Below, one piece after another: positions 47,901 to 50,900 of a DNA stretch of 64,000 bases; within the stretch, counting starts at the first letter, position 1, and each line of letters opens with the position of its first letter. Position numbers and translations under genes: made by a program. The DNA is from Hydractinia symbiolongicarpus (taxonomy: Eukaryota > Cnidaria > Hydrozoa > Anthoathecata > Hydractiniidae): assembly GCF_029227915.1 (NCBI RefSeq), contig NC_079875.1:15373001-15437000 (forward strand). Direction: 5' to 3'. The notes beneath the pieces are model-generated. The model searched no databases and had not been told where the DNA came from. It was given only the letters and a program-made list of their open reading frames with translations.

Positions 47901-50900
47901 AGTTTGATATGACACATTTATTGAGAAAGTGCATAACCACACAAAAATTTACATAGTATACAACTAAATAAACACAACAAGTTTGCCTAAGATTTTATAA
48001 ATGTGCTTATTTTTTACACCTTTTTAGCCTCCAATGTTCCTTAATTTTTTATTAATTTACCAGCGATGGTGAATATTTTTAGGTTTGAAAGAAATGAAAA
48101 GGTGTTGCAGTTCTTATTGTAAAAAAAAATACTCATACGCTATTAAAAAAATAAATAGAAAACTGTTCGGAAATAATTGTTTCTTAGTAATTCTGAACTC
48201 AAATTTATTTTTTCTTAAAATATACGAAGAAATCCAGGCTATACGTGTATGTTTTTATGTTTTATATTGCTGACAAAATCTTAAAGTTAACTAGGATATT
48301 TTGAAAAAAAATATGTCCTTACTATGAGGTTTCCAGGAGTTAGAGACTTCTTTGCTATAGAACTCGGCAAAAACATACGGTTTCCTTTTCGAAGCATCAG
48401 GATATGACGTCTTAAAATAAAGAGAGATAATTTATTACCCAGTTTAGTGGATTAAAAGAAGAAGTGTTGATCTTCTATCTAGGCGATTACTAATAAGAAT
48501 CACTTGGTGGTGGGGTTTTAATTGTGTTGAACCAGTATCATTGGTAATTCGTTGTGTTTAGTCAGAGTGGTGTTCAATAGTGTTGAGTTGAATCAATCAC
48601 ACTAATTTAGCGTTGCGTTATACACAGAAAGAACTATTGCGAAGATAACCTACAGGTTAGTCTTATATATATATATTCCTATTTAACAATGGTAGCAGAG
48701 GGTGGTTACGATCCACCGACCTCTGGGTTATGGGCCCAGCACGCTTCCTCTGCGCATTGTACTTACGATGTTAGCAACCTATGAATGGGAATGTCACACC
48801 TTAGATGTCAAGACGGCATTTCTTCAAGGCAACCAGATTGACAGAGAGGTTATCATAAAGCCCCCAAAGGAAGCAAATACAACAGGTGTGTTCTGGAAAC
48901 TAAATAAAGTTGTATACGGCCTTGCTGATGCTTCAAGAGCTTGGTATCTACGTGTGAAGGAAGAACTAATCGGCTTGGGGTTGAGAATGTCTTTATTTGA
49001 TGAAGCATTATTTTATTGGATTCAAGATGACTGCTGCCAAGGACTGATTGTAATACATGTTGATGATTTTCTATGGGGAGGATCCCATGATTTTCAAGTG
49101 AAGGTCATTTCGCCTATCAGAGAAACTTTTCTCATTGGATCTGAAGATTACTCCAATTTCAAATATGTTGGTGTCAATATACAACAATCTAATGGTTCAA
49201 TTAACTATGACCAAAAGAACTATGTGGCAGGTATGGAACTGGTCAAGATTCAAAACACAACAGACAGACATCGTCAACTATCACATGAAGAACAATCAAA
49301 CTTCCGATATATATGTGGGCAACTAAACTGGATGTCATCGCAATCAAGGCCTGACATTTCATTTGATGTGTGCCAGCTAAGCACAAAACTAAACTGTGCA
49401 GTAGTTGATGATGTCATGAGAGCCAATAAAGTGGTAAAGAAGTTGAAATTGGATCCCAACATTTCCTTGAATTTCCTTGAATTTCCATTACAACTGGTCT
49501 TATATTCTGATGCTTCATTTGGGAACCTTCAAGATGGCAGCTCTCAAAGTGGAATTTTTATTTTCCTGACAGGTGTTGAGAATCTTATGGCACCTATCAC
49601 ATGGCAGTCTAAAAAGATTAAGAGAGTTGCGCGTAGCACTCTTGCTGCTGAGACACTAGCTCTTGTTAATGGTATTGATACATGCATATGGGTGAAGAAT
49701 GTGATAAATGAAGTGTTGAATACTAATCTAGAAGGCATCTTATGTCATACAGATAACAAATCATTGTTTGGTGCTGCCCATTCAACAAAATCTTTGGAAG
49801 ACAAACGGTTAAGGGTTGATATGGCTTCCCTTAGACAGAGTATCAATCAGAAAGAGATTGAATTGAAGTGGATTTCTACCAAACATCAGTTAGCAGACGT
49901 GTTAACAAAACAAGGAGCAAAAAGCACACTCTTAATGAATGTGCTACAGAGGGGTCATGAAGAATAATAGTGACCAATTAAATGTTGAGTTATGAAAATT
50001 TGAATATTGTGTTCAAAAATTAAGTTTTTTTTGAGTTTTTATCTTTTAGGATTTTTATGTTTAAATTCCACACAAGTAATCACACGAAGAAAGAGAGATA
50101 CATGTAGTGATGACTTAACCAAGACTAGTACAGTAGAGGGTTTTGGTGAAAAGCCAGTTTTGCCCCTAGACCACTGTACTAAGCGAGTAGGAGTCGCTAT
50201 AAATTCCTCTCAACATTCGAATAACCAACTGAACGCCAAACAGAAAGAAAATAGAGGGAGATTGTTGATCTTCTATCTAGGCGATTACTAATAAGAATCA
50301 CTTGGTGGTGGGGTTTTAATTGTGTTGAACCAGTATCATTGGTAATTCGTTGTGTTTAGTCAGAGTGGTGTTCAATAGTGTTGAGTTGAATCAATCACAC
50401 TAATTTAGCGTTGCGTTATACACAGAAAGAACTATTGCGAAGATAACCTACAGGTCAGTCTTATATATATATATTCCTATTTAACAAGAAGTACTGATTT
50501 ATCCTGGGTAGAAACATTTTTCATCCCGGCTAGTGTTAAAAGGAAACAAAAAAATCTCACCTATACCTTGTAGGACAATTTTTTTTGTTCAGGTAGTGTT
50601 AAGCAAACGAACAAAATGACCTATACCATGTCAGATAATTTTTTTTGTTTAGGGTAGTGTTAAAGCAAAAAAACACGCCTTACCTATACCATGTGAGACA
50701 ATTCATCATGATAATTAGAAAGAAAACAAAGCCAAATGCACAAGCCAACCAGTACGAAACTAAAAGAAATATTTTTTATTAGGATTATATACCTGGGATG
50801 TGTCTTTTCAGTTCATTTATTTATAAATAGTTAAAATCTTTGTGGATAAATTTGGGCTATTGGAAGATCTAATTTTTTTCCTGTTTCCATAAATTTTGAC

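Follow-up and report, generated by a model that had tools for sequence, protein, structure and literature searches.

How did part of an initiator tRNA come to be joined, in antisense, to the middle of a reverse transcriptase (RT) gene? The question is raised by an LTR retrotransposon in the window analyzed here, a stretch of 64,000 nucleotides of the 480.9-Mb Hydractinia symbiolongicarpus genome (C1:15373001-15437000). The original prediction described an LTR element in which 66 nt antisense to initiator tRNA-Met (iMet), beginning at its CCA end and reaching position 10, are followed directly by mid-RT sequence. That anatomy was confirmed by the LTRs, the target site duplication and a match of 65 of 66 nt to the iMet of the host. 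Moreover, the accompanying interpretation, that the element derives from overextended plus-strand strong-stop DNA, gained support, including a lone mismatch at tRNA position 58 that the prediction had not mentioned.

A Ty1/Copia element without the start of RT

The element spans positions 48465 to 50486 of the window (2,022 bp), and all of its features lie on the plus strand except the tRNA copy. Two 224-bp LTRs with TG...CA ends, at 48465-48688 and 50263-50486, are bounded by a 5-bp target site duplication (AGAAG) at 48460-48464 and 50487-50491, and a closely similar LTR is present in the relatives L073 and L074. The two LTRs differ from one another at a single site, T/C at LTR position 194. 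A putative polypurine tract, proposed from its purine-rich sequence, lies at 50242-50261 just 5′ of the right LTR. Because the LTRs and the target duplication are in place, we conclude that the element arrived by ordinary insertion. Imperfect direct repeats with a spacing of about 60 bp occupy positions 50539-50700, just beyond the right target duplication.

The coding sequence that remains is the 3′ part of pol (48756-49967), consisting of RT from about position 65 to 68 of the RVT_2 profile and the region downstream to the stop codon. Its match to RVT_2 (E value of 7.2e-20, profile positions 68 to 225 of 244) identifies the RT as the Copia type, and together with the paired TG...CA LTRs and the 5-bp duplication it places the element in Ty1/Copia. 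Missing are the first 64 or so RT profile positions and all family sequence upstream of them, including the integrase region. Searches of viral and genome contigs with the RT, and a search of plasmids, gave no useful match, and a search of solved structures gave a single match with an E value of 0.97.

The 66-nt stretch is an antisense copy of host iMet

A spacer of one A (48689) separates the left LTR from the 66-nt stretch (48690-48755), which on the minus strand copies the mature tRNA from position 76, the CCA end, to position 10. The copy is thus antisense on the plus strand with its CCA end beside the LTR, which is the orientation of plus-strand primer copying, and it is longer than the primer-binding site (PBS) of the family, as would be expected of a product of overextended strong-stop DNA. 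Compared with human iMet (sequence as given in PMC8216282), 62 of 66 positions were identical. Elsewhere in the window the highest score was 34, as it was across 100 mononucleotide shuffles, and a chance match was ruled out on that basis. Rfam recognized the short stretch as tRNA when it was searched alone (31.4 bits); over the whole window, Rfam found nothing at its gathering threshold and ARAGORN found no tRNA gene. Positions 1 to 9 of the tRNA are absent from the element, and six of the seven acceptor pairs are unformed in the ungapped register. Position 37 of the copy carries no trace of a stop or an error. A 22-nt iMet core had no matches in viral and genome contigs, and a 20-nt core matched 18 IMG/VR stretches, in 17 of which ARAGORN placed a tRNA-Met at the matched site (the exception being L008); these 18 were left out of the comparisons.

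Host iMet genes were surveyed in 13 fetched stretches (130 kb). The threshold was 60 of 72 identical bases, and 61 genes or gene-like copies passed it, a subset of the genome's total drawn from a tRNA-stretch search in which 40 of 506 candidates were scored. The type sequence was matched exactly by 40 of the 61 and agrees with the element at 65 of 66 positions. The sole exception is position 58, where the element has A on the plus strand (48708), or T in the tRNA sense, and the host genes would give T on the plus strand. A58 and G9 were found in all 61 surveyed genes and T58 in none. Positions 16, 50 and 64, at which the copy departs from human iMet, had been candidates for copying errors or pol-derived bases and were rejected as such, as all three belong to the host tRNA. 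Identity to host iMet stops at G10, and the sequences diverge from G9 onward. None of the 61 genes encodes CCA, and CGT follows the gene in every case. Since the genes lack CCA and the copy has it, the donor was a mature, CCA-ended tRNA or the CCA came from the PBS.

The survey also revealed how some of these genes are organized. Initiator tRNA genes at L030-L042 (C3, at about 3.35, 4.46 and 8.38-8.43 Mb) form tandem arrays with units of about 1.3 kb, and ARAGORN assigned to the units of L033 the tRNAs Ala-TGC, Asp, Lys, Ala-AGC and Met, with Leu-TAG in some. Two units have a tRNA with a TAT anticodon at the iMet place (L033:5531-5603 and L033:6839-6911). Two surveyed iMet genes are changed at positions 33 and 34, and to judge by their sequence the TAT-anticodon tRNAs seem to be iMet genes whose anticodon has changed.

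Relatives have an unextended PBS and ordinary pol

A 645-bp pol query returned 41 matches at 30 loci, with 40 of 103 candidates scored. At the position of the junction, 26 of the 30 loci continue upstream into ordinary pol sequence, and tRNA sequence was found at two, the window element itself (L043) and L055. The seven nucleotides just before the junction read TCTTCGC in 25 of the 26 ordinary loci and TCTTTGC in the other (L061). The remaining two loci, L064 and L065, have unrelated sequence at this point: their pol match starts 15 nt downstream of the junction and is preceded by AT-rich sequence, indicating a truncation of another kind. Two near-identical members, L049 and L050 (C5:26192170 and 26187270), lie 4.9 kb apart in one orientation, a spacing that could be expected of tandem elements with a common LTR.

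The PBS was probed in 19 relatives and was readable in 14, the other five having no PBS in the fetched piece. In all 14, the PBS is 12 nt long and unextended, reading TGGTAGCAGAGG in 13 and TGGTAGCAGAGA, with one substitution, in one; it is followed by AATAAAAGTG, which is not tRNA. The first 12 nt of the window copy (48690-48701) are equal to the TGGTAGCAGAGG form. The original prediction had proposed looking for the 66-nt stretch in full-length relatives. It was absent from these 14, and of the 30 loci read at the junction only the window locus and its duplicate have the fusion. The spacer is one A in 10 of the 14 readable relatives, as in the window element, and two in the other 4, so the extra A of L073 and L074 was dismissed as a mark of the event. 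From the start of the PBS to the junction there are 3,164 nt in L073 and in L074 but 66 nt in the window element; the difference corresponds to a loss of 3,152 nt, from the PBS end to RT, and a gain of 54 nt of additional tRNA-derived sequence.

The native PBS also bears on what the family normally copies. The original prediction assumed a copy of about 18 nt that halts at m1A58, and m1A58 is indeed named as the classical stop of plus-strand strong-stop DNA in a review of HIV-1 (PMC13191261). A native PBS of 12 nt falls short of the 18 nt to m1A58, however, and by analogy with Ty3 (PMC5371799) the family's ordinary product probably does not reach that base; the 12-nt PBS would mark its end or take its place.

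The second copy is not an independent event

A second exact 66-nt copy was found at L021 (C1:11837392), which is the same locus as L055. Its flanks are the same as those of the window element, with 20 kb aligned at 99.6%, which rules out onward transposition as its source. At least 20 kb of element-bearing sequence is thus present twice on C1, at about 11.83 and 15.42 Mb, 3.6 Mb apart. T58 and the difference at LTR position 194 occur in both copies, and both changes therefore predate the duplication. To judge from the positions of L064 and L065, the duplication may reach about 370 kb upstream. We conclude that the second copy reflects either segmental duplication or the misplacement of a haplotype and that the two copies represent a single independent event.

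The copy ends between tRNA positions 13 and 10

The last seven nucleotides of the copy, TCTGCGC, agree at six positions with TCTTCGC in the pol of the relatives. The junction microhomology that had been predicted as CTGCGC does exist, but the exact overlap is the 3-nt CGC (48753-48755, tRNA positions 12 to 10) within a 6/7 match, TCT(G/T)CGC. Adding the codons CTG CGC moves the start of the RVT_2 match from profile position 68 to 65 and raises its score from 72.1 to 74.1 bits. An in-frame Leu-Arg overlap based on the CTGCGC hexamer had been considered and was replaced by TCT(G/T)CGC once the relatives were read.

The tRNA-derived G13 is kept at the junction, so copying reached at least position 13 and, by sequence, no further than position 10. 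The end of the copy therefore lies between positions 13 and 10, a 3-nt ambiguity, and position 10 adjoins G9. In one relative locus, L045 (3,645 bp), the 6/7 fit coincides with a terminal CGC at just two sites, one of them the junction; taken at face value, this count favors an end exactly at position 10, beside G9. The endpoint could also have been set by the structure of the D arm or by the microhomology itself instead of m1G9.

The lone mismatch lies at the site of a presumed primer modification

Human iMet carries m1G9, m2G10, m2G26, t6A37, m7G46, D47, m5C48 and m1A58, as listed in PMC7293042, and A54 and A58 are reported to be conserved in the T-loop of eukaryotic iMet (PMC5372732). If the host primer resembles human and eukaryotic iMet in general, it would carry m1A58, and T58 is what insertion of dA opposite that base would leave. 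According to one account of RT signatures, an RT that reads through m1A makes errors there, and mismatches at m1A followed by A are low in C, i.e., G or T (PMC4787781). As A58-A59 here is an m1A-A context, T, with dA put in, would be an expected product.

The background rate of substitution was estimated from 18 relatives, of which 17 aligned without gaps over 645 bp of pol (L059 was dropped by the filter). The element differed from all 17 relatives at 2 of the 645 columns (0.3%), and thus about 0.2 substitutions are expected in 66 nt and about 0.003 at any one site. Against single relatives the element showed 4 to 8 differences in 645, by which the background would be two to four times as high. 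The mismatch at position 58 could be an ordinary substitution. The prediction that synthesis bypassed m1A58 and stopped before m1G9 draws support from the mismatch at 58 and an end beside G9, but the endpoint can be placed no more closely than positions 13 to 10, and both modifications are extrapolated from human and eukaryotic iMet.

A model for the origin of the element and its alternatives

In our view, the element is a Copia insertion that most probably derives from overextended plus-strand strong-stop DNA. What weighs against this origin is that a single independent event was observed and that position 37, where HIV-1 RT makes a minor stop on its own primer, left no trace in the copy. The order of events that we infer is as follows. 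Host iMet would prime minus-strand DNA on the 12-nt PBS, and the plus strand, starting from the polypurine tract, would copy the LTR and run into the modified tRNA while it was still attached. There, m1A58 would be bypassed with dA inserted instead of dT, and synthesis would reach position 10 and stop before m1G9. The 3′ end, ...TCTGCGC, could then anneal within RT on the minus strand to the complement of TCTTCGC, with six of seven pairs formed and the last three perfect. The minus strand probably ended at that place, the simplest cause being a broken RNA template. Both strands would then be completed and the product inserted by integrase, with the sequence from the PBS to early RT lost. A broader claim, that integrated LTR elements can preserve the modification pattern of their primer tRNA as DNA, here with a misinserted dA marking m1A58 and the end of the copy marking m1G9, and that the "dead-end" strong-stop DNA of Copia elements gives rise to one-step deletion derivatives, is one to which we give slightly more credence than doubt.

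One alternative differs from this model in the last step alone. Strong-stop DNA might have run to the 5′ end of the tRNA, with nine unmatched nucleotides trimmed later as a flap and m1G9 uninvolved. Homology alone would then fix the endpoint, and the CGC overlap could place the junction; yet an extra trimming step is needed, and with an end at position 10 the 3′ terminus is already fully paired at a site that is among the best two in L045. We regard such trimming as unlikely. A shade less likely is the same strand transfer from a hypomodified primer, never methylated at A58 or demethylated, with T58 an unrelated mutation. The HIV-1 review describes unmodified primer as fully copied in vitro and mutation of TRMT6 as leading to extension past A58 by HIV-1 (PMC13191261), so the read-through itself would be accounted for. 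The position of the error would not: given one mismatch in 66 nt, its fall at 58 by chance has a probability of 1/66, or the background rate can be used, which gives about 0.003 for a single site, and yeast iMet without m1A58 is degraded (as cited in PMC7293042).

The window copy could instead be the daughter of an older fused element that arose by the strong-stop route and transposed onward, a history compatible with the model. Its intact LTRs and putative polypurine tract, its nearly identical LTR pair and its retained 12-nt PBS would suit such a daughter, but of the scored matches (40 of 103 pol candidates and 40 of 506 tRNA-stretch candidates) only those at the window locus and its duplicate have the fusion, and we think this history very unlikely. 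Hardly credible is the insertion beside the LTR of a genomic iMet gene, or of a reverse-transcribed free tRNA, combined with a separate deletion from the PBS to RT. The host does have large arrays with iMet genes as a potential source. Nevertheless, the copy has the CCA that all 61 surveyed genes lack, stands in exact PBS register and is without positions 1 to 9, no tRNA gene flanking sequence was present at either side of it, and this history calls for two separate events, each of them exact. The original prediction had named a tRNA gene insertion with a mature 5′ flank beyond position 10 among the findings that would overturn it, and the sequence gave no sign of one. Overextended strong-stop DNA thus remains the preferred origin of the element.

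Discussion

Read-through of a primer tRNA past m1A58 has been described, in the sources consulted, for HIV-1, in experiments in vitro and in cells. Here, a natural Copia element, whose yeast relatives are reported not to inherit tRNA sequence, seems to stem from one read-through molecule that was completed and integrated. An error at position 58 distinguishes lesion bypass from the use of an unmodified primer. If the model is true, past tRNA modification and lesion bypass by retrotransposon RTs may be recorded in genomes in searchable form, and the tRNA-bearing strong-stop DNA of Copia is a route to derivatives lacking the whole region from the PBS to RT. A survey of CCA-bearing antisense tRNA beside LTRs could test how frequent such events are, which modifications stop which RTs, and whether deletion derivatives arise by this route. 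Errors of strand transfer are reportedly also a source of large deletions when retrovirus vectors go through one round of replication, to go by the title of a 1991 report by Pulsinelli and Temin. No tRNA-bearing deletion junction in Copia was found in titles and abstract openings of the open literature.

By description, the family resembles CoRex1, a GalEa-like Copia element of crustaceans that is 4,949 bp long, with 217-bp LTRs, TG...CA ends and a PBS, TGGTAGCAGAGC, complementary to tRNA-Met; in contrast to the window element, no extended PBS was noted for CoRex1 (PMC3587641). The mechanism resembles that of HIV-1, in which plus-strand DNA likewise copies the attached primer, tRNA-Lys3, and RT makes minor stops at 55, 54 and ms2t6A37 of that primer (PMC13191261). 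In HIV-1, according to a figure legend in the same review, a product can be used in later steps only if it ends at 58, 55 or 54 (PMC13191261), whereas in the window, in a Copia element primed by iMet, a much longer product apparently reached pol through microhomology and then became integrated. A route via a chance site in pol would avoid the HIV-1 limit to products with those three ends.

Ty1 and Ty3 share the iMet primer with the window element, and Ty3 is reported to copy 12 nt of the tRNA (PMC5371799). In both, by the accounts available, strong-stop DNA that bears tRNA sequence leads nowhere, and it is the RNA that supplies the inherited PBS (PMC5371799, PMC7472051). In contrast, the window element appears to be an exception to this rule, one in which sequence derived from the tRNA itself was inherited.
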